64,000 nt of DNA from positions 34,315-98,314 of IMG/VR virus record IMGVR_UViG_3300032241_003073, one strand, 5' to 3'. A model generated the notes under the pieces. The model saw only the letters and a program-made list of their open reading frames with translations, had not been told where the DNA came from and did no database searches. Of this stretch, positions 11,892 to 59,454 are shown one piece after another; within the stretch, counting starts at the first letter, position 1, and every line of letters begins with the position of its first letter. The stretch is from a virus. A program made the translations under genes and the position numbers.

Positions 11892-12039
11892 AATAAAAAA
11901 AAGAGAAAATAGGCAGCCAATTTTTATTGCTGGTCCTTCTATAGTCTCTTTCAAGAAGCCGAAATTGCCATTTTTACTTTTTACAAAAATTCATAAGCCA
12001 GGAATCCAAAATAATTCCAAATTTATATTTTTGCCTTAA
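11878..12039 (+). CDS. Small basic protein, 53 aa
   Basis: ATG at 11878 preceded by GGAAAAA. Begins MKSFKIKKRENRQP, with a C-terminal Pro/Phe/Lys-rich stretch. It fills the gap between the DUF6065-like gene and the convergent Gln-rich gene, overlapping each by a few bases, which fits the genome's tight packing. Function unknown. Confidence 0.45.
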   Translation: MKSFKIKKRENRQPIFIAGPSIVSFKKPKLPFLLFTKIHKPGIQNNSKFIFLP

Positions 12040-12407
12040 CCTTGTGCTTGTTGTTGTGAAAATTGTTGATTTTGGTCTTGGTTGGATTGATCGGGCTGAT
12101 TTTGAAATTGGTTAGATTGATCGGTTTGATTTTGATCAGATGAATTGTCTGCGTTTGCTCCAATTTCTTTGGAGAATTTGTTAAAAGCATTTTTGAATGA
12201 GTCATCTGAAACATTTTTTAAAGTTTCAAGGGCTTTTTTAACTTCAGGATCATCAAGAGGATTTCCAATTGCTGGAGATGTTTGTCCTCCTTGAACATCA
12301 GGGGTAGGAGGCGATTGTTGTTGTGATTGCTGCTGCATATCATTTGAATTTTGCATCATTGCATTTTCTTTTAGTATTTTTTGATAAAATTCATAAAACG
12401 ATTTCAT
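12036..12407 (-). CDS. Gln/Asn-rich protein with capsid-targeting-like N-terminus
   Basis: 123 residues from ATG 12407, chosen because AGGTG lies upstream; the longer frame only extends into the neck gene. Starts MKSFYEFYQKILKEN, matching the capsid-targeting pattern with an L-K-E cleavage-like site. The rest is low-complexity Gln/Asn/Pro sequence around a short helical region (PEVKKALETLKNVSDDSF). Probably an internal head protein. Confidence 0.65.
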   Translation of the reverse strand: MKSFYEFYQKILKENAMMQNSNDMQQQSQQQSPPTPDVQGGQTSPAIGNPLDDPEVKKALETLKNVSDDSFKNAFNKFSKEIGANADNSSDQNQTDQSNQFQNQPDQSNQDQNQQFSQQQAQG

Positions 12408-12415
12408 TTTTTCAC

Positions 12416-12958
12416 CTATACAATTTTTATTTTTAAGTCTGGTTGTTTTTGGGTAACTTTGCCTTCTCCAGTAACCACGTCTTCTTGGAATCTTTGGCAA
12501 ATTAATTCAATTCTCAAAACCCCCCACATTTTAAATTCGGCCAAGTTTCTTTGAACTATTACCCAATTTTCACGCAAATGTGGAGTGAATAATCTTGATC
12601 CAATTTTAGGAGGATGTCCTATATTTTGCAAAACTGCTCTATAGTTTAATTCAAACTTCATTTCATCTGGGGCATCAATTCCAAATTGATTTAATAAGTT
12701 TTGTGATGGAATGGGTTCATAATTACACCATAATTGAACAGGATTGTTTGAAAAAATCTTTCCTCTTGCTTCCAAATACACTGGATCTATCATATTTGGA
12801 GTAATAATTACTTCATAATAATAAATTGGAGATCCGCCACGCAATAACGCTTCTTGATCCCATAAATTAAAAAGATCAAATGTACGGTCATTTGGATCAT
12901 ACATTTGTGTGCTTCCACGCAGTTGATAGCAAGTTCCGTCTAGATTTTTTAATGCCAT
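12416..12958 (-). CDS. Neck protein, gp14-like (probable)
   Basis: 180 residues beginning MALKNLDGTCYQLRG. The middle resembles the T4 gp14 layout: LWDQEALLRGGSPIYYYEV, a fold-conserved FGIDAPDEMKFELN, then GSRLFTPHLRENWVI and VQRNLAEFKMWGVLRIELICQ. It sits in the neck/tail-completion block with gp15 and gp13-like genes. The assignment rests on pattern and context, so it is moderate. Confidence 0.5.
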   Translation of the reverse strand: MALKNLDGTCYQLRGSTQMYDPNDRTFDLFNLWDQEALLRGGSPIYYYEVIITPNMIDPVYLEARGKIFSNNPVQLWCNYEPIPSQNLLNQFGIDAPDEMKFELNYRAVLQNIGHPPKIGSRLFTPHLRENWVIVQRNLAEFKMWGVLRIELICQRFQEDVVTGEGKVTQKQPDLKIKIV

Positions 12959-12969
12959 AATTTATATAG

Positions 12970-13398: not shown

Positions 13399-13440
13399 AA
13401 TTTTTTCCTTTTTTATTTTTTTAAATGACTAATATATTAT

Positions 13441-14373: not shown

Positions 14374-14374
14374 T

Positions 14375-17182
14375 TCAATCTCCTCTCTCTTTTAATGCTT
14401 TTTGAATGTTTTGAATTGAAGATTGGTATTGTTTCATCTCTTCTTCGTTTTGCGTTAATTTTATTTTTGTTTCAAACCATTGCAAAAGATTGTTTAGAGA
14501 TTTTGGATTGGTTGTTTTGTCATATAACCATAATGAATTATGAGCAATTCCAACATAATCTCCTTTTGCTTTTTGTTCTGCAAAATTACCATTGTTCATT
14601 GGTATCGTTGGAACAGATAAAGTTGGTTTTGGCGTTATTATTCTTGCAGCTTTTTTAATTTCTTCAGGCTTTTGTGAGAATCCAAATTTTTTGTCAATTT
14701 CTTTTTGTAGTAGTGATAATATTGATTCGTCGTTTGAAGCATTTATTTGGGCTGCAATGCCAAGTGCGGCTTTGCTGTATTTTTCTCCTGTTTTTGGTTT
14801 CGCTATTTTTTCTATTTGTGATTCTTCCATATTTTGTTTTTCAACCAAATCTAAAAATCTTTCTAAAGAATCTAATGCTTCTTGTTCTTTTGGATTTTTT
14901 TGCATTGTAATAATGCCTTCTGATTCTTTTGCTTGCACAACCAAAGGATGTTTTTCAAATGCTTGCAATAAAGACTCAGATGTTTTATTTCCTTCTTTTA
15001 TCCAAGAAATAATTGTTTTTTGTGCTGTATTGTCTGCTTGTTCTTGAGATGTTCCTGTTTTTTGTTGAATTAATTCCGCAAGTGTATTTTTAAGTTTAAC
15101 TTGGAATATGATTTTATCATGAAGTCCCAATTCATAAATATCTGCATTTTTTTCTGCGTCTGTGCTTTGAGCAACTGTTTGCTTTGCTGCTGTGTTGATT
15201 TCATCTGTCATTTTTGCATCTTTTCTTATGGAAGATAATGAAGATCTTAAATTTTGTAAATCATAAGGAAAATTACGACCAGAAGTGTCTAGTATTTTTT
15301 GTCCTTTTTTCCTTTTTTCTTCAGAAGACGATCCATATAAAGATGCAGGGCCTTCTTTCGTTCGTGATTCAATTTCTGCTGTAATATTTTTTTCTTCTCC
15401 TCCTCCTGAGAAGTATTGTGTTTTTTGGATTTGTCCTAAAATCCTAGTTCTACGAGTTCCACCTCCAGATAAATCTTTTTGTAAAACAACGCCGATTTTA
15501 TTGCGTGCAAAGTCTCTTCTTCCTGCTGCATCTAATAATTTCTTGTTTCCTAGATCTGCTATCATTTTCATAAAAACTAATTGATGAAAATCTTCTATTT
15601 CACTTCTTAATATTTCTATTTCATGGTTTGTTGCACCGCCACATCCATGTTTTAAACATTGTCTAATTCCCATTATAATATCTTCAAGATAATCTCCTTT
15701 TCCTGGCTCAAAATTGTTTTTTGAATCAATTCCGCCTCTTCTTTGAGAATTAATTATTTTTTCATATAGTTCATTATATTGTGGATCTGCTGGCGTGACT
15801 TTTGTTGATCTTTCGCTGCTTTTGTTTATACTCATAGACCCAGGAGATTCATGTCTTGTTCCTTGGAATTCTTCATCATTAACTTTAACAAATTGTTTGT
15901 TGTGTCCTCTTAATTTTTCTTTTGGAACATTAATGATTCTTTGTCCTGTTTGTGGATCTGTTATAAAATCATTTTTTTCTTTTCCTAATTCACGCAAATA
16001 ATGAGCGGGATTTACAATTGGAACCATTTTTTCAACTAGGTTTCCGTTTTCATGCAGAATTCTTTTTTCAAAAGGTAAATATAATGGAGGGTTTTTAATT
16101 TTGCCTCCTTCTATTGTTGGAGAAAACCCATCTTCATTCACTCCGGGAATTGGCGGTCCTTTTAACTCTCCTGATTTTATCATCTGTTTCAGTTTAATAT
16201 CTGTAATTTCTTCTGCTTTCTTTTTTCTTTTTGTTATATTTTTTGCATATTCTGGATCGTGTTCTAATTTTAATAATTCTTGATTTAAAATAATTTCTTT
16301 GGCTCGTGATACAGTAAATGTATCTTCAAATCCATTTACCTCTTGCCATACTACATCCTTTGGAAGATCTCCAAACATTCTATGACTATTGGCATTTAAA
16401 AAATCTCTTAACGCACTTTGAATAACTTGATTTTTAGGAAAATTCATTCCTTGGGTTGTTCTTGTGGGATCTTTATCTTCTTCATCATTATCTTCATATT
16501 CATCGGAAATTGGATTTGTCATGTCAAACCCATATAGACCTTTGCCAGAAGGAAGTCCTGACTCTGGATGAAAATCCTCTCCGTGTGTGGTTTCTAATTT
16601 GTGATATAAACGATTAAGATATGGTTTTGCTCTAAATTTTGTTACTTTTTTAACACCAACTTTTTTATCGCTTGAATTTAATGAGAATTCTACTTCTTCA
16701 TTTGGATCTTCTAAAAGATGTGGAGTTTTTTGTTTAACATAATAATGTGCAATTTGTTTTGCTTTTTCCATAATTTGATTATCACTTAATCCTTTTGTGC
16801 TTGTTAAATGATTAAATTCTTCTTTATCTAAAAAATATTTTTTAATTGAATCAAAATTTTTTTCTTTTATTCCTTGGTATATTTCATCTATAATTTCGCC
16901 TTCTTTGTGATCTTCTTGTCTGTGATTATGAAGCCTTTCTACAGCTTTAAATAACATGTCATATCTGGCTTTTATGGCATTTTTCCAATAATCATGTGGA
17001 AATTGTTTTAGAAAATTAATATCTTCTTTGTCAATTTTGATAGGATATTCATTTCTTATATCACCAAATCTTGCCATTTCATGGAAAATTTTGAAATAGT
17101 TTGGCCTTAAAAATTCATATTTTGAATTTTCACTAAAATCTTTTAAAATGAAGTCACGAAATGATTTAATTAATGAAGCCAT
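14375..17182 (-). CDS. Large hydrophilic protein, probable virion/internal protein
   Basis: 935 residues, not recognised. Very Lys/Glu/Asn-rich with Pro-rich patches. The N-terminus MASLIKSFRDFILKDFSENS resembles the capsid-targeting peptide family in this window. No transmembrane segment. A Gly-rich segment near residues 575-600 (GGGTRRTRILGQ) and a helical C-terminus are the only landmarks. It lies between neck genes. Its size and position suggest a packaged or structural protein, perhaps comparable in role to T4 Alt, although I see no ADP-ribosyltransferase motif. Confidence 0.7.
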   Translation of the reverse strand: MASLIKSFRDFILKDFSENSKYEFLRPNYFKIFHEMARFGDIRNEYPIKIDKEDINFLKQFPHDYWKNAIKARYDMLFKAVERLHNHRQEDHKEGEIIDEIYQGIKEKNFDSIKKYFLDKEEFNHLTSTKGLSDNQIMEKAKQIAHYYVKQKTPHLLEDPNEEVEFSLNSSDKKVGVKKVTKFRAKPYLNRLYHKLETTHGEDFHPESGLPSGKGLYGFDMTNPISDEYEDNDEEDKDPTRTTQGMNFPKNQVIQSALRDFLNANSHRMFGDLPKDVVWQEVNGFEDTFTVSRAKEIILNQELLKLEHDPEYAKNITKRKKKAEEITDIKLKQMIKSGELKGPPIPGVNEDGFSPTIEGGKIKNPPLYLPFEKRILHENGNLVEKMVPIVNPAHYLRELGKEKNDFITDPQTGQRIINVPKEKLRGHNKQFVKVNDEEFQGTRHESPGSMSINKSSERSTKVTPADPQYNELYEKIINSQRRGGIDSKNNFEPGKGDYLEDIIMGIRQCLKHGCGGATNHEIEILRSEIEDFHQLVFMKMIADLGNKKLLDAAGRRDFARNKIGVVLQKDLSGGGTRRTRILGQIQKTQYFSGGGEEKNITAEIESRTKEGPASLYGSSSEEKRKKGQKILDTSGRNFPYDLQNLRSSLSSIRKDAKMTDEINTAAKQTVAQSTDAEKNADIYELGLHDKIIFQVKLKNTLAELIQQKTGTSQEQADNTAQKTIISWIKEGNKTSESLLQAFEKHPLVVQAKESEGIITMQKNPKEQEALDSLERFLDLVEKQNMEESQIEKIAKPKTGEKYSKAALGIAAQINASNDESILSLLQKEIDKKFGFSQKPEEIKKAARIITPKPTLSVPTIPMNNGNFAEQKAKGDYVGIAHNSLWLYDKTTNPKSLNNLLQWFETKIKLTQNEEEMKQYQSSIQNIQKALKERGD

Positions 17183-18099: not shown

Positions 18100-18124
18100 C
18101 GTGTAATTTTTATAAAAGGCAAAA

Positions 18125-18982
18125 ATGAGAAGAAAAAAAAATCAAATTTGTGCATTTTCTTGGTATGGTGGAAAAACTTATCACTTAGATTGGATTTTAC
18201 CCATTATAAATCAAGTAGATCACAAAATTTATATTGAATCTTTTGGTGGATCTGCTGCTGTATTGCTAAATAAAAAACCAAGCCCAATAGAAGTTTATAA
18301 TGATATTCATGGAGATCTTGTGAATTTTTTTAGGGTTCTTAGAACAGAAGGAGAAGATTTGATTTCTCTTTTACAGTTGACTCCTTACAGCAGAGAAGAA
18401 TTTGTATTATCGTGCGAAATTCCAAAAAATTTATCACCATTAGAAAGAGCAAGAATGTTTTTTGTTAGAGCGAGACAAATTAGAAATGGCCTTGCTACTA
18501 ATGCGACTCCTGGAAAGTGGAGTTATACAAAAAAAGATGTAAGAAGAAATTGGGCATTGCCTATCAGTCAATGGTTTAATGCTATAGATTCGTTAGAAGA
18601 TATTTGCACTCGAATTGGTCAAGTTCAAATTGAAAATTTAGATGCATTCGATATTATTCAAAGATATGATACTCCTGAGTCTTTGCATTATATAGATCCT
18701 CCTTATTTGTTAAGTTCTAGAACTGGAGGAAAAAATTATGAATATGAATACAATGAAGATCAGCATGTTAATTTAATTAATTTACTATTAAATTTAAAAG
18801 GCAAAGTTGTTATTTCGGGTTACAAGAATGAATTATATCCTTCTTTGTTGAAAGGTTGGAATGAATATAGAAGGGCTGAATCTTTTGCAAATACAACTTT
18901 AAATAATGGTGAAAAAAAGTTAAGACAAGAAGTTATTTGGACAAATTTTGAATGCTCATTAGGCAAAGAAGGTTGGGAATGA
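18125..18982 (+). CDS. DNA adenine methyltransferase, Dam/D12 class
   Basis: 285 residues. SAM-binding FSWYGGKTYHL at residues 11-21 and YIESFGGSAAVLLNKKP; VYNDIHGDLVNFFRVLR; catalytic IDPPY near residue 190; VVISGYKNELY. Methylates adenine N6, typically to protect phage DNA or host-mimic it. The stop overlaps the next gene start (ATGA), so the genes are coupled. A second, more divergent D12 enzyme lies at 36146-36874. Confidence 0.88.
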   Translation: MRRKKNQICAFSWYGGKTYHLDWILPIINQVDHKIYIESFGGSAAVLLNKKPSPIEVYNDIHGDLVNFFRVLRTEGEDLISLLQLTPYSREEFVLSCEIPKNLSPLERARMFFVRARQIRNGLATNATPGKWSYTKKDVRRNWALPISQWFNAIDSLEDICTRIGQVQIENLDAFDIIQRYDTPESLHYIDPPYLLSSRTGGKNYEYEYNEDQHVNLINLLLNLKGKVVISGYKNELYPSLLKGWNEYRRAESFANTTLNNGEKKLRQEVIWTNFECSLGKEGWE

Positions 18983-19578
18983 AGAACTTCCAAAATTGGC
19001 GAAACGAACAAAATATAGAAAAAAATAAAGATTTTTACGTTACCAGAGATGAGTTTTTAAATATTTGTCAAAAATATTTTGATTCTAATCTTCGTGGATC
19101 TATGAAAACTCATCATGAGTACATGCAAGAAAATTTAACAGAAGCTGTAGAAACTTCAAGATATTCAATTGAAGTTAATTATAGAACTACGACTAAAGAA
19201 GCTTTGGAAGGGTTTGCCAAAATTTGTTTGGGATATGTTAGTGCAGCATTAAAGAATCATGGATATCATACAAAACATGTTTTTTCTGAAAAACCTTTAA
19301 GACTTTTAATTTCTTCTAGAAATTGGGATGATGGAGAGTGGACGGGAGTTGTGACATGGCATCCTGATCATAATTGTTTTGTAATTAGCAAAGGTTTTTA
19401 TAATAAAGATCGTAAAACTGTGTCTATTCAAAGTTCACAAAAATGTAATGCAAATTCAGCCTCCGATGTCTCTAAAGAGTTACATAACATGATGAATCAT
19501 TTAAAAAATCAACCAGATAAAACATCAGAAAAAATTAAATTACGTCCTGTACCTTTGAAGAGAGGACCAAAAACATGA
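18979..19578 (+). CDS. Hypothetical protein with capsid-targeting-like N-terminus
   Basis: 199 residues from ATG 18979, which overlaps the methylase stop; GAAGG lies upstream. Starts MKNFQNWRNEQN. The body has VETSRYSIEVNYRTTTKEALEGFAKICLGYVSAALKNHGY and HVFSEKPLRLLISSRNWDDGEW, an unnamed conserved pattern. Overlaps the Nudix gene by 4 nt. Probably packaged in the head; function unknown. Confidence 0.65.
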   Translation: MKNFQNWRNEQNIEKNKDFYVTRDEFLNICQKYFDSNLRGSMKTHHEYMQENLTEAVETSRYSIEVNYRTTTKEALEGFAKICLGYVSAALKNHGYHTKHVFSEKPLRLLISSRNWDDGEWTGVVTWHPDHNCFVISKGFYNKDRKTVSIQSSQKCNANSASDVSKELHNMMNHLKNQPDKTSEKIKLRPVPLKRGPKT

Positions 19579-20060
19579 TTGAATTTTCAAAATGGCGAGA
19601 AAAAAAATTAAATGAACAATTTCACAGAATTGGCAAAGACAGTAAAAAATATTGGGGGCGACTTGGTGCTGGAATATTGTTTACAGATGGAGAGCGTGTT
19701 CTTCTTTTAAGAAGAGATGGCAGCAGTGATAATAAAGGATGTTGGGGAATTCCAGGAGGTAGAGCAAAAGACGGAGAAGCACCAATTGATGTTGCACGAA
19801 GGGAAACAAAAGAAGAATGCGGTTCGGCTGAAGGTCAAAGATTTGCACATTTTCACAGTGTGGATGGAGCCCATCATTTTCATACTTATTTGTTTGCAAT
19901 AGCTTCGCCTTTTGATGTTGAGCTTTCTAAAGAGCACAATCAGTGGAAATGGGTCAAATTAGACAAAGTAAAAGATCTAGATTTACATCCTCGCCTTAAA
20001 AAAGATTGGCCTAGTTTTTTAAAGGCGATAAAGAAAAAATTTTCTTTAAAAGATGATTGA
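19575..20060 (+). CDS. Nudix hydrolase with capsid-targeting-like N-terminus
   Basis: 161 residues. A complete Nudix box at about 62-83, G-x5-E-x7-R-E-T-K-E-E-C-G, hydrolyses nucleoside diphosphate-linked substrates with Mg. The leader MIEFSKWREKKLNEQ fits the capsid-targeting pattern, with L-N-E as a gp21-type cut site. If processed, the mature enzyme would be injected with DNA. HFHSVDGAHHFHTYLF and EHNQWKWVKLDKV are substrate-side strands. Substrate not predictable. Confidence 0.85.
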   Translation: MIEFSKWREKKLNEQFHRIGKDSKKYWGRLGAGILFTDGERVLLLRRDGSSDNKGCWGIPGGRAKDGEAPIDVARRETKEECGSAEGQRFAHFHSVDGAHHFHTYLFAIASPFDVELSKEHNQWKWVKLDKVKDLDLHPRLKKDWPSFLKAIKKKFSLKDD

Positions 20061-22683: not shown

Positions 22684-22917
22684 TCAACCAGATGTATCTG
22701 GTTTCTTTTTTGGATTTCCGTTCTTATCATACCCCATTTTAAATAAAGCATCAGCAGCATAAGGTGTAAAATAAGCATCTGGATATTGGTGGCGAACATA
22801 AGCATCTGGATAAGCCCAATATGCAATTCCCGCTCTTTTTATTCCAGACTTTTCGTCGTGCTTATAAAGTGGCAATTCTTTTTTAGATTCGCCTGCCCAT
22901 TGAATAAATGATTTCAT
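22684..22917 (-). CDS. Small protein with capsid-targeting-like N-terminus
   Basis: 77 residues from ATG 22917 (AGGA upstream). Begins MKSFIQWAGESKKELPLYK, then a Tyr/Ala/Asp-rich stretch (YWAYPDAYVRHQYPDAYF) with a repeated YPDAY. Probably an internal head protein; function unknown. Confidence 0.6.
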   Translation of the reverse strand: MKSFIQWAGESKKELPLYKHDEKSGIKRAGIAYWAYPDAYVRHQYPDAYFTPYAADALFKMGYDKNGNPKKKPDTSG

Positions 22918-24802: not shown

Positions 24803-25714
24803 ATGCTATCATACAAACAATGGAAAACTTTGAATGAATCAGTAATGCCTAGCTTCACACTTGGCATTGCATCTCCTTCAAATCTTGGAATTCAATCTCC
24901 ATTTGCTATGGATTTGGAAGAAGCCAAAAAAATGGCAAAAAAGAAATATAAGAAAAAGTTCAAAGATGAAGAAGAAGACGATGATGAAACAGGCGATGGA
25001 GAAATGGTTAAGCCATCATCTGATAAAGATGAGCCAGATGTTGATGTAGATGTTGATTCGGACGAAGATTCAGATGAAGACAAAAACGTTTGCTCTAAAT
25101 GTGGAATGATGTCTAAAAAGAAATCAAAGATGAAGTCCAAAAAGAAAATGTGGTCTGATGACGATGATCAAGACGATGATTCTGAAGATGACGACGATCA
25201 AGACGATGAAGAAAAGTCTAAAGATGATGATGAAGAAGACGAAGAGGGCGATGATGAAGTTTCACCAAAGAAGATGATGTCTAAAAAGAAAATGAAGTCC
25301 GACGAAGAAGATGAAGATGAAGATGAAGACGATGGTAATGAAGAAGATGATGATGACGAAGACGAAGGCGAAGAAGACGAAGACGATGAAGGCGACGAGG
25401 AAGATGACGAAGATGACGAAGAAGAAGGCGACGATAAGCCTTCAAATAAAATGATGTCTAAAAAGAAAATGCTTAAAGGCAATCAACACAAGATTGACAT
25501 GAACAAAAATGGCAAAATTGACGCTGAAGACTTTAAGATTCTTAAAAACAAAAAGAAGAAAAATAAAAAGAAGGATGATTTGTCGGAAGATTCTTCTTGG
25601 TGGAACAGTGTTCAAAGCATGAATGTTTCTCCTTACACAAAATACAGTGATGGCTGTGAAAGTTTATTCACACCAATTGACACTGAAAATTTAACTCAAG
25701 GTGTTCGCTCCTAA
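24803..25714 (+). CDS. Extremely acidic internal protein with EF-hand-like motif
   Basis: 303 residues. Starts MLSYKQWKTLNES: capsid-targeting pattern with an L-N-E cut site. Residues ~50-225 are long Asp/Glu runs broken by repeated basic islands (MSKKKMKS-like, four or five copies). Near residues 230-248 lies DMNKNGKIDAEDFKIL, an EF-hand/dockerin-type loop, then a Lys cluster. SD AGAGGAA. Acidic internal proteins may act as scaffold, DNA mimic or counter-ion sink; which is unknown. Terminator follows. Confidence 0.75.
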   Translation: MLSYKQWKTLNESVMPSFTLGIASPSNLGIQSPFAMDLEEAKKMAKKKYKKKFKDEEEDDDETGDGEMVKPSSDKDEPDVDVDVDSDEDSDEDKNVCSKCGMMSKKKSKMKSKKKMWSDDDDQDDDSEDDDDQDDEEKSKDDDEEDEEGDDEVSPKKMMSKKKMKSDEEDEDEDEDDGNEEDDDDEDEGEEDEDDEGDEEDDEDDEEEGDDKPSNKMMSKKKMLKGNQHKIDMNKNGKIDAEDFKILKNKKKKNKKKDDLSEDSSWWNSVQSMNVSPYTKYSDGCESLFTPIDTENLTQGVRS

Positions 25715-41709: not shown

Positions 41710-42399
41710 ATGTATGACGCAATTATAATTTCAGATCTTCATTTGGGAAGCAATGTTTGTCAATCTAAAGAAATTTTAAAATTTTTACATCTTATTGATA
41801 ATTTGGAAATTATTACTGATAAATTAATCATTAATGGAGATTTTTTTGATTCTTGGGATTTCAGAAGATTGTCCAAACAACATTGGAAAATACTTTCAGC
41901 AATAAGAAAAATTTCAAAAAAAATTCAAATTGTTTGGATTAATGGAAATCATGACGGACCTTCAGAAGTAATATCACATCTTATAGGTGTTGAAGTAGCT
42001 GAAGAATTTATTTTACAAAGTGGATTTGAAAAAATTATGATTATTCATGGACATCAATTTGATGATTTCATTGTAGATCATCCAATTATAACTGAAATTG
42101 CTGATTTCTTTTATAGACAACTTCAAAAAATACATATTTTTTGGGCAAAAAACGCTAAAAAATACAGCAAAACATTTCTTCGTTGCTCAGAAAAAATTGA
42201 AAAACGTGCAAAAGAATATGCATTCCAAAAAGATTGTAGGGCAGTTTGTTGCGGACATACACATTTAGAATTAAAATCTATTGGTTTAATTGATTATTAT
42301 AATAGTGGATGTTGGACAGAATTACCATGTTCTTATTTGACGCTTCAAGCGGGGAATGTTCAATTAAACCACTTTTTTACAAACCAGGAGAAGAAGTAA
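41710..42399 (+). CDS. LpxH-like metallophosphoesterase
   Basis: 229 residues with all calcineurin-type motifs in order: ISDLHLGS, INGDFFDSWD, INGNHDG, IHGHQFD, CCGHTHLELKS. The layout matches UDP-2,3-diacylglucosamine diphosphatases (lipid A pathway) and their relatives. It could change host lipid A or hydrolyse nucleotides. No signal peptide. SD AAAAGGGG. Confidence 0.82.
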   Translation: MYDAIIISDLHLGSNVCQSKEILKFLHLIDNLEIITDKLIINGDFFDSWDFRRLSKQHWKILSAIRKISKKIQIVWINGNHDGPSEVISHLIGVEVAEEFILQSGFEKIMIIHGHQFDDFIVDHPIITEIADFFYRQLQKIHIFWAKNAKKYSKTFLRCSEKIEKRAKEYAFQKDCRAVCCGHTHLELKSIGLIDYYNSGCWTELPCSYLTLQAGNVQLNHFFTNQEKK

Positions 42400-42574
42400 C
42401 TCCTCCGCTACTTGCACAAGCACCTCCTGGACCTGGACCACCACCCATGCCACACAATTTCAAATCGTGTGGCTTTGGCTTAATATCTCTCGGTCCAGGT
42501 TTTCCAACAGAATTTTGAGCCTTTCCTTTGCTGAACCAAACTTCCTGTAGTGATAACCATTTTTTAAATTGCAT
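42377..42574 (-). CDS. Small Gly/Pro-rich protein with capsid-targeting-like N-terminus
   Basis: 65 residues: MQFKKWLSLQEVWFSKGK with an L-Q-E cut site, then Gly/Pro/Ser-rich tail (GGGPGPGGACASSGG). Convergent 23 nt overlap with the phosphoesterase gene. Start box GTAAATAA lies 3 nt upstream. Confidence 0.6.
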   Translation of the reverse strand: MQFKKWLSLQEVWFSKGKAQNSVGKPGPRDIKPKPHDLKLCGMGGGPGPGGACASSGGVTSSPGL

Positions 42575-43030: not shown

Positions 43031-43270
43031 TTATTTTTTTTCTACTAATTTTATAAATTCACTGTTGGAAAGATATGTTTTTGGATTTCTTAAAATTTTA
43101 TTCATCAATTCTTTTCCTTTTGGTGAATTTAAATGTTCCCAAACATAATGTCTTGTAGAAATATCATATTTTTCAAAAACTTCCCTCAAAGATTTCACCA
43201 AAGATGTCATCGCCTGAACTTTGCTGCTGCTAATTTCTTTGGCCTCTTTAAATTCTTGATATGATTTCAT
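43031..43270 (-). CDS. Internal-protein-like, capsid-targeting N-terminus, 79 aa
   Basis: MKSYQEFKEAKEISSS is the closest match in the window to the T4 internal-protein leader MKTYQEFIAEA. The rest is helical and basic (TSLVKSLREVFEKYDI, WEHLNSPKGKELMNKIL). SD AAAGGT. Probably packaged and cleaved by gp21. Confidence 0.7.
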   Translation of the reverse strand: MKSYQEFKEAKEISSSKVQAMTSLVKSLREVFEKYDISTRHYVWEHLNSPKGKELMNKILRNPKTYLSNSEFIKLVEKK

Positions 43271-43664: not shown

Positions 43665-43850
43665 ATGCAAACATTTCAACAATTTTTAGAGTCAAAAGAA
43701 AAAAAGAAAAAACACAAGCTCAGACTCGGAATGGACATAGAAGGAGAGCCAGTAGTTGTGGGCGATGATCCTCCTAAAAAAAATAAATTAAAAATGACGC
43801 TATCAAATGAAGGCGAGCCAGTAATTATAAAGAAGCAAAGGAAAAAATGA
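43665..43850 (+). CDS. Small basic protein with capsid-targeting-like N-terminus
   Basis: 61 residues: MQTFQQFLESKEKKKK, then two related units (GMDIEGEPVVVGDDPPKK and TLSNEGEPVIIKKQRKK). CATAAATT immediately precedes ATG with no ribosome site. Probably an internal head protein that binds DNA. Confidence 0.6.
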   Translation: MQTFQQFLESKEKKKKHKLRLGMDIEGEPVVVGDDPPKKNKLKMTLSNEGEPVIIKKQRKK

Positions 43851-44266
43851 GAACAATTTCAGATTTTAAAAATTCAAATTCAATAAAAAATGAATCAACA
43901 TCGAGTGAAAAGAATGTAACTTCTATGTTTTCAAAACTTTTTGAATCAAGAGATTTTGCACATTATGCACATCTAAAATCAAAATCTTATGCAGAGCATA
44001 AGGCTTTAGGAAGCTTTTATGAAGAAATTATAGAACTGGCAGATACTTTTTATGAGACTTATGCTGGACAATATGGTCAAGTTAGCTTTAATTTGTCTTC
44101 TACTCCAAAAGATTCAAATGTTATTAGTTATATGGAAAATTTAGGCAAAACACTGGCAGATGGTCACTCATTGTTAGAAAAAAATGACACACATCTTCAT
44201 AATATCTTGGATGAAATTGTTGGTCTGATTTATCAAACATGCTATAAATTAAAATATTTAAAATGA
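43847..44266 (+). CDS. DUF5856-like phage protein
   Basis: 139 residues. Helical core FAHYAHLKSKSYAEHKALGSFYEEIIELADTFYETYAGQYG matches a family common in T4-like phages (DUF5856-like, four-helix, loosely ferritin-like pattern). N-terminus MRTISDFKNSNS may be a weak capsid-targeting leader. Overlaps the previous gene by 4 nt. Confidence 0.65.
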   Translation: MRTISDFKNSNSIKNESTSSEKNVTSMFSKLFESRDFAHYAHLKSKSYAEHKALGSFYEEIIELADTFYETYAGQYGQVSFNLSSTPKDSNVISYMENLGKTLADGHSLLEKNDTHLHNILDEIVGLIYQTCYKLKYLK

Positions 44267-44300: not shown

Positions 44301-45155
44301 TTATTTTCTGGTTAAAGTAAAACGATCTCCTGATATTGTTATATCCCAACCAGACGAAAAATATTTTTCAACTAATCTTTTATAAATTGCCGCTCGACGA
44401 TTTTCTTTTCTTAAATATCCTTCTTGAGATAAAGATTGAATTGCTATTGAGGTATCTTTTAAATATTCATATAATCGCTCAATATCAAAATCCAAATATT
44501 TAAAAGATCCTCTTTCTATTTCATTCCTTAAATTATAAATAAATACTTCTAATTCTCGACCTTGATTGCTTTGAGGTTGTGCTGTCATATAAATATTAAT
44601 GTCTCTAATGAACTCTAGCCATTTTTCTTTATTGAAGTCTGGCTCAGGGCCGGGAATTGGACGGTTAAGCTTATTAAATAAATCAATTCTTTGTTGATTA
44701 GGAGGAAGCATCGTTGTTACATGACTTTTTATTGCATTTTTAAATTGATTTAATATTTCATTTGTATTCTTTATAAGAGTAACAGCATCCATTCCTCTGA
44801 TTAATTTTTCATCTCCCTGACCACTATGAGCAGTAAATGTAAATTTATTTGCATGAATCTTATCTGATTCTCTTTTTAAAAGACCAAGAACCCCAGGCAA
44901 TATTTCAGGATCTCGATACCTCTCGCCAGAACTAGCATTATCATCCAATACATTATTTACATAAAAAATAACTTGATATTCTTTGTTCCAATTGTCTATA
45001 AGTTGAACCTCCACTTTATTTTTTAGCTTTGTAGTGAAATTAATCTTTATCATTGGCTTTGCGTTATTTGTAGAAGCGTTTTTTATTGTGTTTTTTCTAC
45101 GGTATCCTTTAGGTATTACAGGTTCTATAATTTCTAGCCAATTTCTAAAATTCAT
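44301..45155 (-). CDS. Conserved protein with capsid-targeting-like N-terminus, 284 aa
   Basis: ATG 45155 has AAGGAT upstream; the longer frame overlaps the divergent gene. Leader MNFRNWLEIIEPVIPKG. Contains VQLIDNWNKEYQVIFYVNN, RYRDPEILPGVLGLLKRESDKI, NKFTFTAHSGQGDEKL. Similar unnamed proteins occur in marine T4-like phages as I recall. Function unknown; may be packaged. Confidence 0.65.
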   Translation of the reverse strand: MNFRNWLEIIEPVIPKGYRRKNTIKNASTNNAKPMIKINFTTKLKNKVEVQLIDNWNKEYQVIFYVNNVLDDNASSGERYRDPEILPGVLGLLKRESDKIHANKFTFTAHSGQGDEKLIRGMDAVTLIKNTNEILNQFKNAIKSHVTTMLPPNQQRIDLFNKLNRPIPGPEPDFNKEKWLEFIRDINIYMTAQPQSNQGRELEVFIYNLRNEIERGSFKYLDFDIERLYEYLKDTSIAIQSLSQEGYLRKENRRAAIYKRLVEKYFSSGWDITISGDRFTLTRK

Positions 45156-45192: not shown

Positions 45193-45918
45193 ATGCAATT
45201 CAAACAATATATTTACGAATCTGAAACAACATTGCAGTACCATGACAATTTAAATGAAAAGTTGTGGTCAAATAAAGTGTTGCATAAAAAAATAAAAAAT
45301 CATCTTTTAAAAATTGCATCTGCTTGGCAAGAATTTGCAAAAATACCAGAATCTGCCGTTTTAGATATAATTATAACAGGAGGAAATGCAAATTATAATT
45401 ATACAGAATTTAGCGATATAGATTTACATTTGTTCGTAGATAAGAATAAAATAGCAGCATGCAACAAAGATGTTCTTAATGATTATCTTTTGGATAAAAA
45501 AGCACTTTGGGCCTTGCATCATGACATTAAAGTTGTTGGTTATCCTGTTGAGCTTTATGCGCAAGATGTAAATGAGCCAACATCAAAAAATCAAGGCGTT
45601 TATAGTTTGTTGAAAAATAAATGGATAAAGCCACCTGTTAAAGAAAAAGTAAATTTTAATGATCCATTAATTAAACACAAAGTCGCATCAATAAAACATC
45701 ACATTGACTTTTTTGTTAACAACAAATCAAATGATGTTAAAAAAATGCAAGAATATAAAGAAAAAATACGCAAACTGCGAGCAGCATCTGTTCAGAAAGG
45801 TGGAGAGTTTAGTATAGAAAATCTAGTGTTTAAAGAACTTAGAAATAAAGGATATATTGAAAAATTCCACGATTATATTGATCATGCTCAAGATCACGAC
45901 TTGAGTTTGAAAAAATAA
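45193..45918 (+). CDS. Nucleotidyltransferase with capsid-targeting-like N-terminus
   Basis: 241 residues from ATG 45193. Leader MQFKQYIYESE with an I-Y-E cut site. VLDIIITGGNANYNYTEFSDIDLHLFVD is a pol-beta-type nucleotidyltransferase motif (GG ... SDIDLH), and a third acid may lie in VELYAQD. It transfers NMP to an RNA, protein or small molecule. Packaged delivery would let it act early in the host. Target unknown. Confidence 0.75.
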   Translation: MQFKQYIYESETTLQYHDNLNEKLWSNKVLHKKIKNHLLKIASAWQEFAKIPESAVLDIIITGGNANYNYTEFSDIDLHLFVDKNKIAACNKDVLNDYLLDKKALWALHHDIKVVGYPVELYAQDVNEPTSKNQGVYSLLKNKWIKPPVKEKVNFNDPLIKHKVASIKHHIDFFVNNKSNDVKKMQEYKEKIRKLRAASVQKGGEFSIENLVFKELRNKGYIEKFHDYIDHAQDHDLSLKK

Positions 45919-45932: not shown

Positions 45933-46505
45933 ATGCAATTCAAAAATTTTTTAGAAAATTCAGAAAATAATAAAAAACGCATTTTAGTGCTGATCCATCC
46001 AGAATGTTGTGCTGAATTAGGTCCAGATCAAGCAAAAAAATACGTAGAATCACTTACAAGGGATTCTAATAAATTTGATTACATAATAACTCATGCTTTC
46101 ACATCAAGCTCTGATTGGGTTGATAATTCAATTTTGTCAAATGAAAGTAAAGAAGCTTGGAAAATTTTAAGAAAAGTTTCTGAGTCAATTAGTGATGTTT
46201 TTTTATGGAATCCTAAAGACATGTATGGGTGTTCTTACAGCAAAGAATTGCCCGATTATTTAATTGAGAATCCCGAATCCGAAATTTATATGGCGGGAGG
46301 CTATGAAAGCAATTGTTTGTGGATTGCATATCGGCAATTATTTGAAAAATTAAATTGGGTTTTAAAAGAAAACAAAACAAAAGTTCATTATTATAAGCCT
46401 CTTATTTTTACGAATAAAATTTCTGGTTATGCTTATCCCGAACCAAGATATCGTGACGACTTTCATCCTAGTAAAATTTCTTATAAAAATTCATTTGAAA
46501 ATTAA
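45933..46505 (+). CDS. Hypothetical enzyme-like protein with capsid-targeting-like N-terminus
   Basis: 190 residues. Leader MQFKNFLENSENNKK, then alpha/beta sequence: RILVLIHPECCAELGPDQAKKYVESL, FDYIITHAF, SEIYMAGGYESNCLWIAYRQL. The last segment recalls isochorismatase-like hydrolases (GG-x-x-x-x-C), but the other family residues are not evident. Function unknown. Confidence 0.6.
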   Translation: MQFKNFLENSENNKKRILVLIHPECCAELGPDQAKKYVESLTRDSNKFDYIITHAFTSSSDWVDNSILSNESKEAWKILRKVSESISDVFLWNPKDMYGCSYSKELPDYLIENPESEIYMAGGYESNCLWIAYRQLFEKLNWVLKENKTKVHYYKPLIFTNKISGYAYPEPRYRDDFHPSKISYKNSFEN

Positions 46506-52937: not shown

Positions 52938-54374
52938 TCAGATCACAAAATTTGCAATCGACATTCTAGCATAGAATTTAGCACCTTCACGGAGCAATTT
53001 TTTGCCGTATCTTGTTAGAATTCCCTTACGTGGGCAGAAGCTCTCTGGATCGAGAACAACTGGCGTTTGGGTTAGTGGAACATATGGACAGTAGAAATAA
53101 CCCGAATCCATATATGAATCTCCCTTATATCCCATCAAGATTTGATTGGTTGGGAATAGAGGATCTTTATATAGTCTCCAACGGTTGTTAACTGTTCCAA
53201 CATATTGAATGCCCAAGCTGCTAGTGAATGTCTCAGAAGGAGCAGGAGCGAAACCGGCTGTAGCTGTTTCAAAGATAGAAGCGACTTCAGGGCTGGTTAC
53301 GAGCCAGTTAGCTCCACCACGTAGTGTCTTTCTATGGATGACAGCAGATACTTCAACAACTTTGACGTAAAGGCTTTCATACTTTTCTTTGATTGTTTCG
53401 CCTAGTGCTGTATTGAAGTCCCAAGCAGTAACAGTACCAGAGTTGTTACGTAGGTCAGTAAGAACTTCACGGTCGATTTCTAGGTTGATTTCTTGGGCTA
53501 GAACAGCAGTCAATTCGGCTTCGGCATCCAAGTTGTGTTGGCTGCGAAGGTCTTGTTGTGCTTCATAGCTCCAAACAGCCTTTAGCTTACGAGTCTTAGC
53601 AGCAATTTCTTCTGATTCAATAACTAGATTGATTTCAGGAAGATCTTGTTGGCATTCCATGTTGTACTCATAGCTTAAAACAGCACGGTTTGTTCCTGGG
53701 GTGCCATTCCAAGTAAGAGAAAGTTCGCCAGTGTTTAGACTTAGGCTACCATTGGTAACATATGTTGATGGCGATCCAATGCTTGTTAGTGTAAAGCTGC
53801 CGCTTGAAGAAACAACGAATGTTTGAACAGCAGTGCTTCCAGCATAAATGGTTCCTGTTACAGTACCAGCAAGAATTGGGGTGTGTTCTAGTGGAGCATA
53901 GGTCGAAACAACTCCTGTACCTGGATCAGTTGTTGTTGATTCGTTTTGAACGAACTGATGGGTATAGAAGATGTCGAGGTTTGCAGTACCATCAGCGGTT
54001 TGCATTAAGCTGTTGGCATCATCACCTGGGAATCCACCAATATTGTCGGCACCACGAGTTGCACCTTTGTTGCTGCTGTAGCGGAAACGTAGGTAGTAAA
54101 CTAGACCAGTTGGTCCCAATAGTGGTTGAACGCTAACAATCTTGTTGGCGATTAGTTGTGGGTAAATACGACGAACTAGTGGAATGCTGATTCTCTTGAA
54201 TTGAGCAATATCGCCAGTGTCGGTTGAGACTTCGTTCATAAGTCTCTGATTTTCGAGTAGAACTGCTGTAGCAGAACGAGCATACTTATCTTCGATGCCT
54301 TCGAGGAGTCCGGTTCTGCCCCAACGAGATTCTAACTCCTTAGCTTCGTTTAAAAATCTAGAATTTGCGTTCAT
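52938..54374 (-). CDS. 23: Major capsid protein, gp23-like
   Basis: 478 residues, against 521 in T4. VRRIYPQLIANKIVSVQPLLGPTG matches the conserved region after the gp23 cleavage site, and the end WLVTSPEVASIFE ... PESFCPRKGILTRYGKKLLREGAKFYARM is typical. An L-M-N-E near residue 48 is the likely gp21 cut. Codons are richer in G/C than most of the window, indicating high expression. SD AAAGGAAA after a TAATATAAA box. Confidence 0.95.
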   Translation of the reverse strand: MNANSRFLNEAKELESRWGRTGLLEGIEDKYARSATAVLLENQRLMNEVSTDTGDIAQFKRISIPLVRRIYPQLIANKIVSVQPLLGPTGLVYYLRFRYSSNKGATRGADNIGGFPGDDANSLMQTADGTANLDIFYTHQFVQNESTTTDPGTGVVSTYAPLEHTPILAGTVTGTIYAGSTAVQTFVVSSSGSFTLTSIGSPSTYVTNGSLSLNTGELSLTWNGTPGTNRAVLSYEYNMECQQDLPEINLVIESEEIAAKTRKLKAVWSYEAQQDLRSQHNLDAEAELTAVLAQEINLEIDREVLTDLRNNSGTVTAWDFNTALGETIKEKYESLYVKVVEVSAVIHRKTLRGGANWLVTSPEVASIFETATAGFAPAPSETFTSSLGIQYVGTVNNRWRLYKDPLFPTNQILMGYKGDSYMDSGYFYCPYVPLTQTPVVLDPESFCPRKGILTRYGKKLLREGAKFYARMSIANFVI

Positions 54375-54418
54375 ATTAATTAACTTTCCTTTATATTAAC
54401 TATTTGGAGTATTACTTG

Positions 54419-55315
54419 TTAGGATGATTTTTTTACACCTGATAGGATCAATAGTTGATCAATATCATTGTTTGTGGGTGCTGCGTATTCCGATAAAACA
54501 ACACCTTCGTCTGCAATTTTGCCTCTCCCCGTTACATTCTTTGCTTTTTCAGATCTTTCTTTCTGTTCCGTGATAAAACTGGACTTTTTGTCACGAGAAA
54601 TTGCCTTACGGCTTTCTGTGATAATTTCTTGAGCTTGTCTTACGCTTTCGTTTAGCTTTGTGTTTTCAGTCGATAGACGAATATTACGAGCTTCCATTAG
54701 GCGAAGTTGGCCCTTCATTTCTTCGATTGATTTGTTTGCTTCGTCTAGCTTGCTAGAAGAAACTGTTGCGAAATCTACATCAGATAGATAATTACTTGTT
54801 AGATCAATGATCTTATCTAGAGTAACCTTGTGTTCAGACATGCGAGGATCATTAAGAACATCTCTCTTGGCTTGTTCGTAAATTTCTTGTCCTTTGAATT
54901 GAAGGAATTGATCAACCTTGTCAACAATGTATTCCTTCATTTCTGCTAGCTTCTTGTCGTATTCTTCATACATTTCGACTTCTAGCGATTGATTTTTGTT
55001 TCTCTCTGTCTTTAGAATTTGATATGCTTCTTCGTATCCTTCTTCTAGTGCGGCCTTGTATTCTTCGCCTTGAACTTCTAAGCGATTTCTAAGATCAGCG
55101 ATAATTGCATAAGCTTCTTCGTATCCCTTTTCTGCTGTTTTTTCAGCAGTTTCTAGTTCGCCTGTAAGCTCTGCATAAGCTTCTTCGAGCTTATCGTTGA
55201 ATTCCTTTTCAAGACTGTTCTTGGTTTCTTCTAGCATTTCCTTTACAGCAGATGCTACTTCACCAACTTCAGCTTCAGGTAACATTCTTTTAAGTGCTTC
55301 TGTGATTTTGTCCAT
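54419..55315 (-). CDS. 22: Prohead scaffold (core) protein, gp22-like
   Basis: 298 residues, against 269 in T4. Highly charged, almost wholly coiled-coil, Glu/Lys-rich with repeated YEEAYAI/YQIL segments (three near-copies of EEGYEEAYQIL type). The place between gp21 and gp23 fits the T4 order. Assembles the prohead core and is degraded by gp21. TATATAAAA box upstream at 55331-55339. Confidence 0.85.
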   Translation of the reverse strand: MDKITEALKRMLPEAEVGEVASAVKEMLEETKNSLEKEFNDKLEEAYAELTGELETAEKTAEKGYEEAYAIIADLRNRLEVQGEEYKAALEEGYEEAYQILKTERNKNQSLEVEMYEEYDKKLAEMKEYIVDKVDQFLQFKGQEIYEQAKRDVLNDPRMSEHKVTLDKIIDLTSNYLSDVDFATVSSSKLDEANKSIEEMKGQLRLMEARNIRLSTENTKLNESVRQAQEIITESRKAISRDKKSSFITEQKERSEKAKNVTGRGKIADEGVVLSEYAAPTNNDIDQLLILSGVKKSS

Positions 55316-56429: not shown

Positions 56430-56450
56430 ATATCATTGCCTCTTTTTTTT
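56413..56450 (+). terminator. Terminator overlapping the endonuclease stop codon
   Basis: gaggcaatgata-attgaa-tatcattgcctc then eight or more Ts. The TGA stop lies in the hairpin loop. It also faces the end of gp21. Confidence 0.92.
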
Positions 56451-56467
56451 CTTTTTAAAAGATAATA

Positions 56468-57127
56468 TTAAATTCTTTTAAGCATTTGTTTCTTTTCTGA
56501 TTCAACAATTCCTCCCAAGCAAGCTATCAAAGCTTCTTTGGATACTTTGGGTTTTGTTGGAATTGAAGAAGTATTATATGTTGGAACATAACTTTCTTTT
56601 TTACCAGAAAATTCTTTTTGATATGCATTATGAGTGCTTGGGTCAGCAACAGCGTCGAATGTGATTAGCTTATAGCTTTCTCCAATAACAAGAATTCCAT
56701 TTTCATCACTTCTGCCGTTTCCAACTCCACGGCTACTAATTCCAACTCTTACACCATCTGATATAAGACTTTTTAGAATTTTACCATGAGGTGTGTTAAG
56801 GATTTCTCCTTCTCCCATTAGGTTGTTTCCTTCCCACCACAATTTTGTGATAATGTGGGAACACTTTTCAAAGTGAATAATTGAATCTGTAGGATGGTCT
56901 AGTTCTCCAACTAGACCACGAGCTTCAACAATTGGAATTAGCTTTTTTAAATTTTCATCAAGAACTGTATACGGGTAAATTCTTTTGTTCTTATTGACTG
57001 CTTCAGCTTCTTGGAATTTACCTCTAAATTTAGTCAAACCTTTATCGGTTGTTGATTCATTTAGACTTAGGGTGAATCCGCTGTTGTTGCAACAGTCAAC
57101 GAATAGACTTAGTTTCTCATCATTCAT
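56468..57127 (-). CDS. 21: Prohead maturation protease, gp21-like
   Basis: 219 residues from ATG 57127 (AAAGGAGT upstream), matching T4 gp21 (212). The longer frame overlaps the core-protein gene and lacks a site. Catalytic features: His78 in GELDHPTDS, Ser131/132 in VGISSRGVGNG, Asp158 in ITFDAVADPS. Cleaves scaffold, capsid and internal proteins after [LI]-x-E, the site seen in many leaders of this window. Confidence 0.92.
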   Translation of the reverse strand: MNDEKLSLFVDCCNNSGFTLSLNESTTDKGLTKFRGKFQEAEAVNKNKRIYPYTVLDENLKKLIPIVEARGLVGELDHPTDSIIHFEKCSHIITKLWWEGNNLMGEGEILNTPHGKILKSLISDGVRVGISSRGVGNGRSDENGILVIGESYKLITFDAVADPSTHNAYQKEFSGKKESYVPTYNTSSIPTKPKVSKEALIACLGGIVESEKKQMLKRI

Positions 57128-57144
57128 TGGACTCCTTTTTAAAA

Positions 57145-58920
57145 TTAAGCTTTGGTTTCGCCCTTGGTTTTGTCCCATGGAGAAGCAGGAACATATGGAT
57201 TCTTTAGATTTGGCCAAGTGTCGCCAGATTGCCAACGACTCCAATCGCTATCGCCATCATCCACTGCTGATTTTTCTTTCATTTTGTAGTCGCCAAATGG
57301 CTTGGGAACGTATGGGTTGCTAAGTGCTGGCCATTCATCGCCATCAGAATGATTGCCCCATGCATTGCTTCTCATTTCGTCTGCCAAATTGTTTTTATAG
57401 CTTTTTCCATCAGATACTGGAGCCGAGTCGCCCCAATCTCCAGGGAATTTGGATGGCACAGCATCTCCAACTTTAGCGGCCCAAGACATACGTGGGTGAT
57501 CTCCACTTACTGTATGATGGACATTGTTATTGTTTACATCCCATGTGTCGTTTGCTCCATCTACATTAGCTTCAACAAAACTATGAATGTAAGAAGCGAT
57601 TGATTCTGCTAGTCCCAAATCAATTTCTGTTTCATAATTTAGAATTGCAGCACATTCTTGCATAAAGTTTTCAGTTTCTGATTGAGTAGCTTCATCACCA
57701 TTCTTTACAGCAACTTTTCGAACTTCATTTAATGCATTGAATAGATCAGAGAACATTTTGAAATTAGCTTGATCAGATTCATCTAGTTTGGCATAGAATC
57801 CATCAACCAATGTTTTAAACTCTTTGTAAGAATCTTCGCATTGTTTGCATTCTGCTGTTACATCAGTTGTGGCTCCTGCCAAATTTCCAATTTTACGAAC
57901 ACGATCAGTATAAGCATTGTGTGCTGTTCTTAGAATAGCTTCGGCCATAAACGAACAAACTTTATCATCATAATTTGATACGTTTGCAGTCTCTAATGCA
58001 GTGGCAATTTGCGAAGATAATTCTTCTTCTGTAGAATAAAGAACATCTGGCCAACGGCTAACAATGGCTTCAAGTGTTTCTTCGAGAGAGATATTGTCAG
58101 AAATATTGTTATATCTCTTGAGATCTGACATTGCTTTGACGAATGCTTGATCTTCAGACAATCTCTTCATTTTTCCACGTAGAACTTTAAGTTCGTGATC
58201 TAGTGTCTTCCAGTTGAAGCTTAGAATCTTGCTTTCGTTTCTCTTTTGAAGAGTTGGAACAGCAACAGCAACAACATTACCTTTGTTATCGGTACGAATA
58301 AAAGATTCAGAAAGAACTGGTCCAAATTCCTTGTAATTAATGTAATTGATTACATTTTCGCACATAACTTGCCATTCTTTGATGGTTTCAGGCTTGATTT
58401 TTTTGGCATAGAAAGCAGTTTTTGGATTTTTTCCTTTCTTGACAAATTTTTTAAGATTCTTTAGATTCTTGAGATTCTTCTTGGATTTTTTCGATGCTAG
58501 TTTTTCTGCCTTTGGCTTGGTTGCTTCGTTTACTAGCAATTCACGCCTAACGAATGGCATGGATAGATAGCTTTCAAATAGATTGCTTGCTTTTGCTTCA
58601 TTATTTTCTAATAAAGAATCAACCATATTTACCAAAACTTGACGAGCAGATTTCTTTTCGCCGCTTTCTTCAATAACTAATTGTTCAATATTTTCAAGAA
58701 CCAATTGATCCTTGTTTAGACTATAAGTAGCATGAACGAAGTTTCCATCTGGTTCTTGATAAGTAACATCAGATTCTCCATAAACAAATAGATTTAAACT
58801 ATCTTTTTCTAGAGAATTTGCCAAAACTTCTTCTGCACCAATTAACTCTTCTTGGGCTTTTGTAAGTGATCCTTCTTCGATTTTTTTGAAAGCATCGAAG
58901 CTGATTAATTTTCTTTTCAT
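57145..58920 (-). CDS. Prohead core/internal protein in the gp67/gp68 position
   Basis: 591 residues from ATG 58920; the preceding TTG is a weaker start, and GGGAG lies upstream. Begins MKRKLISFDAFKKIEEGS, with an I-E-E cut site. Central Lys/Asn/Leu cluster (KKSKKNLKNLKNLKKFVKKG) is very basic. Helical middle and a Trp/Asp-rich C-terminus with two similar units ending NPYVPKPFGDYK and NPYVPASPWDKT. Takes the place of T4 67/68 between portal and protease. Probably core component. Confidence 0.65.
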   Translation of the reverse strand: MKRKLISFDAFKKIEEGSLTKAQEELIGAEEVLANSLEKDSLNLFVYGESDVTYQEPDGNFVHATYSLNKDQLVLENIEQLVIEESGEKKSARQVLVNMVDSLLENNEAKASNLFESYLSMPFVRRELLVNEATKPKAEKLASKKSKKNLKNLKNLKKFVKKGKNPKTAFYAKKIKPETIKEWQVMCENVINYINYKEFGPVLSESFIRTDNKGNVVAVAVPTLQKRNESKILSFNWKTLDHELKVLRGKMKRLSEDQAFVKAMSDLKRYNNISDNISLEETLEAIVSRWPDVLYSTEEELSSQIATALETANVSNYDDKVCSFMAEAILRTAHNAYTDRVRKIGNLAGATTDVTAECKQCEDSYKEFKTLVDGFYAKLDESDQANFKMFSDLFNALNEVRKVAVKNGDEATQSETENFMQECAAILNYETEIDLGLAESIASYIHSFVEANVDGANDTWDVNNNNVHHTVSGDHPRMSWAAKVGDAVPSKFPGDWGDSAPVSDGKSYKNNLADEMRSNAWGNHSDGDEWPALSNPYVPKPFGDYKMKEKSAVDDGDSDWSRWQSGDTWPNLKNPYVPASPWDKTKGETKA

Positions 58921-59100
58921 AATCAATTGACTCCCTGTGCTGTTGTTGAATTTTTTATTCGCAACTACTGCCTATGATGAGGTTATTTATTATAGTCAGC
59001 TTAATTTTTATTAAAGTCGGCTTATTTTTTTTAAAAAAACATAAAATGGATAAACCTCTGGTATATAGTTATGCATGTAAATATAAAAATGAGTGTAAAA

Positions 59101-59454
59101 ATGAAAACATTTCAAGATTATTTGAATGAGAACGATAATGAAGCATCATCTTCTGGGTCTGATGATGCTTATAATGCAGCAATTCAGGCATTTGAAATCG
59201 TTATGTCAAAAAACAGCAAAGCGGCGGTAAATTTTTTAAATGACATTTCTTCAACACTTCCAGAAATTAAAACAATTCTTCAAAAATATGGTTTAGATTC
59301 TTTTAAGTCTGTGAATCCTGGATATGAAAGAAAAAATGGAAGAAAAATAACGCATAAAGGATTGGGAGATTTTTCTACACACGATGTAAATGATCGTAAT
59401 GTTGATGTAATTGCAACTAATGCAGCAGACTCATATCAAAATCCAATTGGATAA
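59101..59454 (+). CDS. Internal-protein-like, capsid-targeting N-terminus, 117 aa
   Basis: ATG 59101 chosen because MKTFQDYLNENDNE matches the capsid-targeting pattern with an L-N-E cut site; two ATGs upstream are in frame. The rest: AYNAAIQAFEIVMSKNSKAAVNFLNDISS, then a basic region. TATATAG lies at 59063. Probably packaged. Function unknown. Confidence 0.65.
   Translation: MKTFQDYLNENDNEASSSGSDDAYNAAIQAFEIVMSKNSKAAVNFLNDISSTLPEIKTILQKYGLDSFKSVNPGYERKNGRKITHKGLGDFSTHDVNDRNVDVIATNAADSYQNPIG

Follow-up and report, generated by a model that had tools for sequence, protein, structure and literature searches.

A T4-like leader on many unlike phage proteins: a probable capsid-targeting propeptide

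Why should so many unrelated proteins of one phage begin in the same way? The question is raised by a stretch of 64,000 nucleotides, bases 34315-98314 of the 98,314-base virus record IMGVR_UViG_3300032241_003073 (hereafter the window; positions are those of the window, with strand as + or −, unless another genome is named). Here a first-pass annotation had noticed, between 12036 and 59454, a set of otherwise unlike proteins that open with a short pattern reminiscent of the leader by which T4 brings internal proteins into its prohead. In T4, that leader sits on about three internal proteins only, which have been found to inhibit particular restriction enzymes of the host (PMC12373910). We argue that the shared N-terminus is very probably a capsid-targeting propeptide of the T4 type, borne by proteins that are unusually many and varied, and that, by every feature that can be tested in sequence, we are looking at the T4 internal-protein system in a much enlarged form.

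A leader shared by unrelated proteins

Is the leader real, or is it the kind of likeness that appears whenever one looks at enough protein starts? All 16 start peptides quoted in the first-pass annotation were found at the coordinates and on the strands given for them, and 15 of the 16 carry an [FY]xx[FWY] core at residues 3-7; the sixteenth, at 37519 (MKTFYESLSK), lacks the core and is probably not a member. Two of those retained (12407 and 34744) have weak scores with the matrix described below, a further leader gene (29209, MFGFRQFIAD) had been missed, and another start (43847, MRTISDFKNSN) is borderline. Five more leader genes lie in the record upstream of the window, so that 12036-59454 spans only part of the set.

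What chance would give was estimated from ATGs lying in frame inside the genes themselves. A regular expression for the leader matches 21 starts of the 98-kilobase (kb) record against 3.1 expected (odds ratio 7.3, p=3e-6) and 49 against 7.1 (p=5e-12) in LR756511.1, the nearest record in the annotated collection, which is a 595-kb, unannotated, uncultured phage with an 81% identical major capsid protein (MCP). A leader matrix, trained on LR756511 only and then applied to other genomes, finds 14 starts in the 98-kb record where 0.56 are expected (threshold 7) and 12 where none is (threshold 9). At threshold 9, the counts are 45 versus 1.3 expected in LR756511 itself and, among the huge relatives that we compared, 14 versus 0.4 in G001 (IMGVR_UViG_3300049215_000771), 16 versus 0.95 in G002 and 26 versus 2.7 in G007. 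T4-type controls gave few matches, between one and six (among them T4 3, P-SSM2 4, KVP40 3, HTVC008M 3, S-PM2 1), and the non-T4 controls gave one (phiKZ) and none (LR756500). A scan of the kind that had been proposed thus finds the leader at gene starts far more often than expected, and the internal-ATG nulls, the cross-genome training and the non-T4 controls together rule out chance and gene-start composition as its source.

What these proteins have in common is an N-terminal leader of about 10-20 residues; what follows it is otherwise unrelated. The leader codons differ synonymously from one leader gene to another, which means that selection acts on the peptide, and the same variation rules out the copying of a cassette at the level of DNA as the cause of the likeness. 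As to the bodies, the first-pass annotation is borne out: of the 133 leader proteins of five huge genomes, 87 lack any homolog, whether in the rest of those genomes or in five T4-type ones, and the cargo is mostly genome-specific. Where orthologs exist, the leader is mostly retained, though linker and leader sequences differ. The leader can also be detached. The Nudix hydrolase of the window (19575-20060, +) has MIEFSKWREKKLNE in front of QFHRIG, at or near which its relatives start (orthologs without the leader occur in LR756511, G002, G007 and L217-L220), and a NADAR protein has the leader in LR756511 and none on its G001 homolog. Gain or loss of the leader on otherwise orthologous enzymes is what a modular use of it, also suggested at the outset, would look like.

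How close is this leader to the one in T4? Run blind over 458 T4 starts, the LR756511 matrix ranked gp61.1, ipII and ipIII as its top three, with ipII second and ipIII third. Since ipII and ipIII are annotated in T4 as internal virion proteins, a matrix built from an uncultured phage has recovered the classical capsid-targeting sequence (CTS); the leader of ipII and ipIII is a proven CTS (PMC9026906, PMC12373910). The blind retrieval bears out the comparison with MKTYQEFIAE that began this work. The best T4 score belongs to gene 61.1 (19130, −, in NC_000866), annotated as hypothetical, whose start (MKTFKEFIKE) makes its product a candidate for an overlooked T4 internal protein.

The leader/body junction and the head genes

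In T4, gp21 cleaves after [LI]xE (PMC9026906). Does this motif stand where a propeptide should end? Starts were picked solely by their residues up to the second aromatic, and the motif was counted within the next ten residues. Counted in this way, [LI]xE follows the core in 14 of 23 leaders of this record versus 12 of 104 other starts (p=2e-6), with corresponding figures of 14/55 versus 82/868 in LR756511 (p=8e-4), 13/31 versus 46/588 in G001 (p=8e-7) and 16/43 versus 64/682 in G007 (p=3e-6). The sham motifs [KR]xE, [AGST]xE and [LI]x[KR] showed no enrichment in this record or in LR756511.

The gene at 18979-19578 (+), which has 52 viral orthologs, makes the point within a single family. Its product begins with MKNFQNWRNE, continues as a propeptide of about 55 residues to LTE at residue 55 (the next residue is A) and ends in a conserved body of about 140 residues (RYSIEVNYRT...). 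Across the family, the N-terminal region varies from about 10 to about 60 residues and has no common sequence past the leader core, and [LI]xE occurs within 12 residues before the conserved RYSVEVN body in 26 of 29 unique junctions versus 5 of 323 windows within the body. With the motif concentrated at the junction and scarce beyond it, the body is expected to withstand the protease. An AlphaFold model of fair quality (mean predicted local distance difference test [pLDDT] score 77, body near 88) puts the site within the linker of lowest confidence, residues 51-60, between propeptide and body; the body had no PDB match at E<0.001. All members of three other families (6/6, 4/4 and 4/4) retain [LI]xE at the junction, with a free middle residue. 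At the level of sequence, then, a gp21-type motif does sit at the junction of leader and body, both in the record-wide counts and in the four families.

The presumed cutter is encoded in the window as well. A prohead protease of the gp21 type (56468-57244, −; PHROG 207, E=7e-48) belongs to a head module with an MCP of the gp23 type (52938-54374, −; PHROG 138, E=6e-84) and a portal of the gp20 type (60176-63934, −) that has two intein-like insertions, one of them with a LAGLIDADG endonuclease domain. The first-pass annotation had named both gp21 and gp22. The former is secured by its profile; the latter, a probable scaffold (54419-55315, −), is assigned by its position between the MCP and protease genes and by an LR756511 ortholog of 49% identity, without a profile match. 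The predicted maturation site of the MCP, after LMNE and before V, aligns with the T4 site after FLTE and before A.

Within this cluster, between the portal and protease genes and on the opposite strand, lies a leader gene (59101-59454, +), whose product of 117 residues starts with MKTFQDYLNE and then N. Of the 44 related head loci that extend far enough to judge, 34 have such an opposite-strand leader gene, 2.5-9 kb upstream of the MCP gene (mostly 3.6-4 kb). It typically starts with MKTFxxYxxLKE or a near form, and nothing at the N-terminus of this family is better conserved than the leader core.

Destination, expression and cargo

What is being carried? In the window, the recognised cargo consists of the Nudix hydrolase, a weak nucleotidyltransferase and a DUF5856 protein (borderline leader); in LR756511, it consists of NADAR, a C39 peptidase, a tRNA-ligase-type (2H) phosphodiesterase and DUF5661; and elsewhere there are a DUF3293/S-AdoMet-lyase-like protein (G001) and a poly(A) polymerase head (G007). 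The suggestion that the cargo is more diverse than that of T4 survives these sequence tests, with the Nudix assignment confirmed and the nucleotidyltransferase match weak. Enzymes that act on nicotinamide adenine dinucleotide (NAD)/ADP-ribose, nucleotides, RNA ends or S-adenosylmethionine (SAM) would fit a counter-defence role.

Could the leader proteins instead be mainly parts of the prohead core (the scaffold), chopped and expelled rather than delivered? One might think so, given that the 59101 protein is small and is encoded where T4 has core genes 67 and 68, and that many other leader proteins are small too. We nevertheless hold this to be unlikely: among the bearers there are several whole enzyme folds (Nudix, NADAR, C39 peptidase, SAM-lyase-like, poly(A) polymerase head), and the 18979 family has [LI]xE at its junction and only rarely in its body. 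We give somewhat less credit still to the proposal that the leader sends late proteins to some other site, such as the tail, neck, membrane or replication compartment. A few bearers are indeed large or near tail genes (as at 14375-17182, a borderline leader), but proven T4 capsid leaders score with the same matrix, the motif at the junction is that of the head protease and one leader gene sits inside the head cluster.

Late-type boxes are also commoner before leader genes than before others. In LR756511, a box (TAAATA, TATATA or a near form) stands 1-9 nucleotides (nt) before the ATG of 34 of 49 leader genes versus 62 of 734 others (p=1e-22), with a peak at 4-5 nt; in this record, the counts are 9/14 versus 9/104 (p=7e-6), and a box 3-8 nt before the ATG is likewise tied to leaders in G001, G002 and G007 (p<=5e-6). 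Shine-Dalgarno-like sites are found in 15 of 49 leader genes of LR756511 versus 426 of 734 others. The presumed reader of the TAAATA box, a gp55-like late sigma factor, is encoded in the window (5220-5789, +). At T4 late promoters, transcription begins about six bases beyond TATAAATA, so boxed leader genes should yield mRNAs that start at or near the ATG; the arrangement predicts, in other words, that leader genes make leaderless late mRNAs. Ribosomal protein bS21, considered because it might assist leaderless translation, is encoded in several relatives (G002, G007, G008 and LR756511); it is present in some relatives only and was not found in this record. That the whole likeness is a translation-start effect, in which leaderless late mRNAs prefer particular opening codons while the encoded peptide is inert, might be read from the box that is often 4-5 nt before the leader ATG and from the few Shine-Dalgarno sites, but it is highly improbable, since leader codons vary synonymously, boxed non-leader genes have no leader peptide, in the head cluster the peptide recurs on leader genes most of which show a normal ribosome site and no box next to the ATG, and a start codon does not explain [LI]xE 10-60 residues downstream.

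A capsid-targeting propeptide is by our estimate much the most probable reading, and it has its own difficulties. The excess of [LI]xE is not significant in G002 (p=0.12), and near six leaders of the window (35593, 43270, 43665, 45933, 22917 and 34744) a canonical [LI]xE is missing. At P3 of the predicted MCP site stands M or F, not L or I. About 20 non-leader genes of LR756511 are also preceded by the box, which would therefore mark late genes generally and not leaders. Recognisable enzymatic folds are a minority of the cargo. All of these count against the reading that we favour.

How would such a system work? Late in infection, a gp55-type sigma would read the TAAATA-like boxes that closely precede leader genes; each protein would be docked on the prohead core by its amphipathic leader (M-K-x-F-x-x-[WFY]-[L]-x-E); the gp21-type protease would cut after [LI]-x-E and leave the cargo free inside the head; and the freed cargo would be ejected together with the DNA, most of it probably to counter the defences of the host and help to take it over within minutes of entry. 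One may go further and imagine general-purpose delivery, in which a late box and a leader form a unit that is joined to genes as they are acquired (Nudix, NADAR, SAM-lyase-like, 2H phosphodiesterase, peptidase and many dozens without a recognised function), so that a virion would carry 15-45 different counter-defence or take-over proteins, active before any phage gene is switched on. About this larger idea we are evenly divided; if it is true, novel anti-defence proteins lie hidden in quantity among the uncharacterised leader proteins.

Relation to known systems

The internal proteins IPI, IPII and IPIII of T4 are the closest parallel: a MKTYQEFIAE leader matched by the matrix, one leader in front of bodies that are not related, the [LI]xE cut, a gp20-21-22-23 head module and a gene set that is highly variable between relatives. 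Here, in contrast, there are 14-45 bearers per genome versus about three; the core usually ends in W or Y (MKxFxxW); the propeptides are longer and sometimes two-part; the late box abuts the start codon; and recognisable enzymes occur among the cargo. The gmrSD inhibitors Ip1-3 of T4 are injected, are common only in their N-terminal leader and each beat one defence (PMC12373910). They are three inhibitors of one restriction family, whereas the recognisable enzymes of the present set are predicted to act on nucleotides, NAD/ADP-ribose, RNA or SAM. The ejection ("E") proteins of phiKZ and SPN3US also involve large phages, many packed proteins and a gp21-related protease that cuts after glutamate (PMC9026906, PMC5694885), but SPN3US propeptides often exceed 100 residues and have [SA]xE or AxE motifs, and phiKZ has only its one match to the matrix. 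Such traits ([SA]xE, long propeptides) are absent here, where leaders are short, the motif is [LI]xE and [AGST]xE is not significantly enriched. An antirestriction protein brought into the head by an N-terminal signal (PMC9024508) shares the principle, but it is one large protein and has no short leader common to many.

Our literature search found no description of a leader expansion of such size. The logic of the T4 internal proteins recurs here on about ten times the scale, in a lineage to which hundreds of IMG/VR contigs are related (MCP relatives are encoded on 337 IMG/VR stretches, and some contigs reach 340-533 kb). The leader together with [LI]xE would give a simple rule for telling from raw sequence which of its uncharacterised proteins a phage sends in along with its DNA. 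By that rule about 130 mostly uncharacterised proteins of five genomes become testable candidates, either as injected effectors or as anti-defence proteins, and the leaders themselves may serve as tags with which to load cargo into phage heads.

Other leader genes of the window and neighbouring observations

The remaining leader proteins of the window are a mixed company. The first (12036-12407, −; 123 residues) begins with MKSFYEFYQKILKE followed by NAMM and has the core, a low matrix score and LKE ending at residue 14; MKSFIQWAGES (22684-22917, −; 77 residues) is retained as leader in the G002 and G007 orthologs; and MLSYKQWKTLNE, followed by S, opens a protein of 303 residues (24803-25714, +) whose junction [LI]xE is retained in LR756511, G001 and G007. 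The 29209 protein (29209-29514, +; 101 residues) is helix-turn-helix-like by way of its LR756511 ortholog, and MKTFFEYIQGN (34361-34744, −; 127 residues) is a weaker match. Then come MSFKEWLSK (35375-35593, −; 72 residues), MQFKKWLSLQE followed by V (42377-42574, −; 65 residues), MKSYQEFKEAKE (43031-43270, −; 79 residues), the lysine-rich MQTFQQFLESKE (43665-43850, +; 61 residues), MNFRNWLEIIE followed by P (44301-45155, −; 284 residues), MQFKQYIYE followed by S (45193-45918, +; 241 residues), whose nucleotidyltransferase match falls just below the Pfam cut-off, and MQFKNFLEN (45933-46505, +; 190 residues).

A protein of 178 residues (39486-40022, +) starts with MQFQNWLFINE and then S and has [LI]xE in 6/6 family members. 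Its body (CxC...CKH) is SWIM-finger-like by eye, and the model of the family fold was too poor for use (pLDDT 55); a viral scan for its relatives returned none, probably because the seed patterns were too specific, as relatives occur in related loci. A late box lies 4 nt before the ATG of this gene and of those for the 29209, 35593, 42574, 43665 and 45933 proteins. The borderline DUF5856 protein (43847-44266, +) is a homolog of T4 rI.-1, the start of which (MKFSDFSQSGK) is also leader-like.

Two further observations concern the relatives. In G001, about 17 otherwise unrelated small proteins end with a C-terminal tag, [KR]YRSIDD plus 1-9 residues (e.g., 58393, 117553, 518021, 518238, 518471 and 518743 of that genome), the codons of which vary synonymously, so the peptide itself is selected; a longer form of the tag occurs in only four IMG/VR contigs, and we found no paper on it. 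In G001, LR756511, G004, G005 and G007, there are also short open reading frames with one MCP segment each (often 50-70 residues, about 30-78% identity), the segments differing among them. Those of G001 lie at 58162, 351363, 453516, 475593, 517823, 518357 and 524424, several with the C-terminal RSIDD tag, and possibly such segments interfere with the capsid of a rival.

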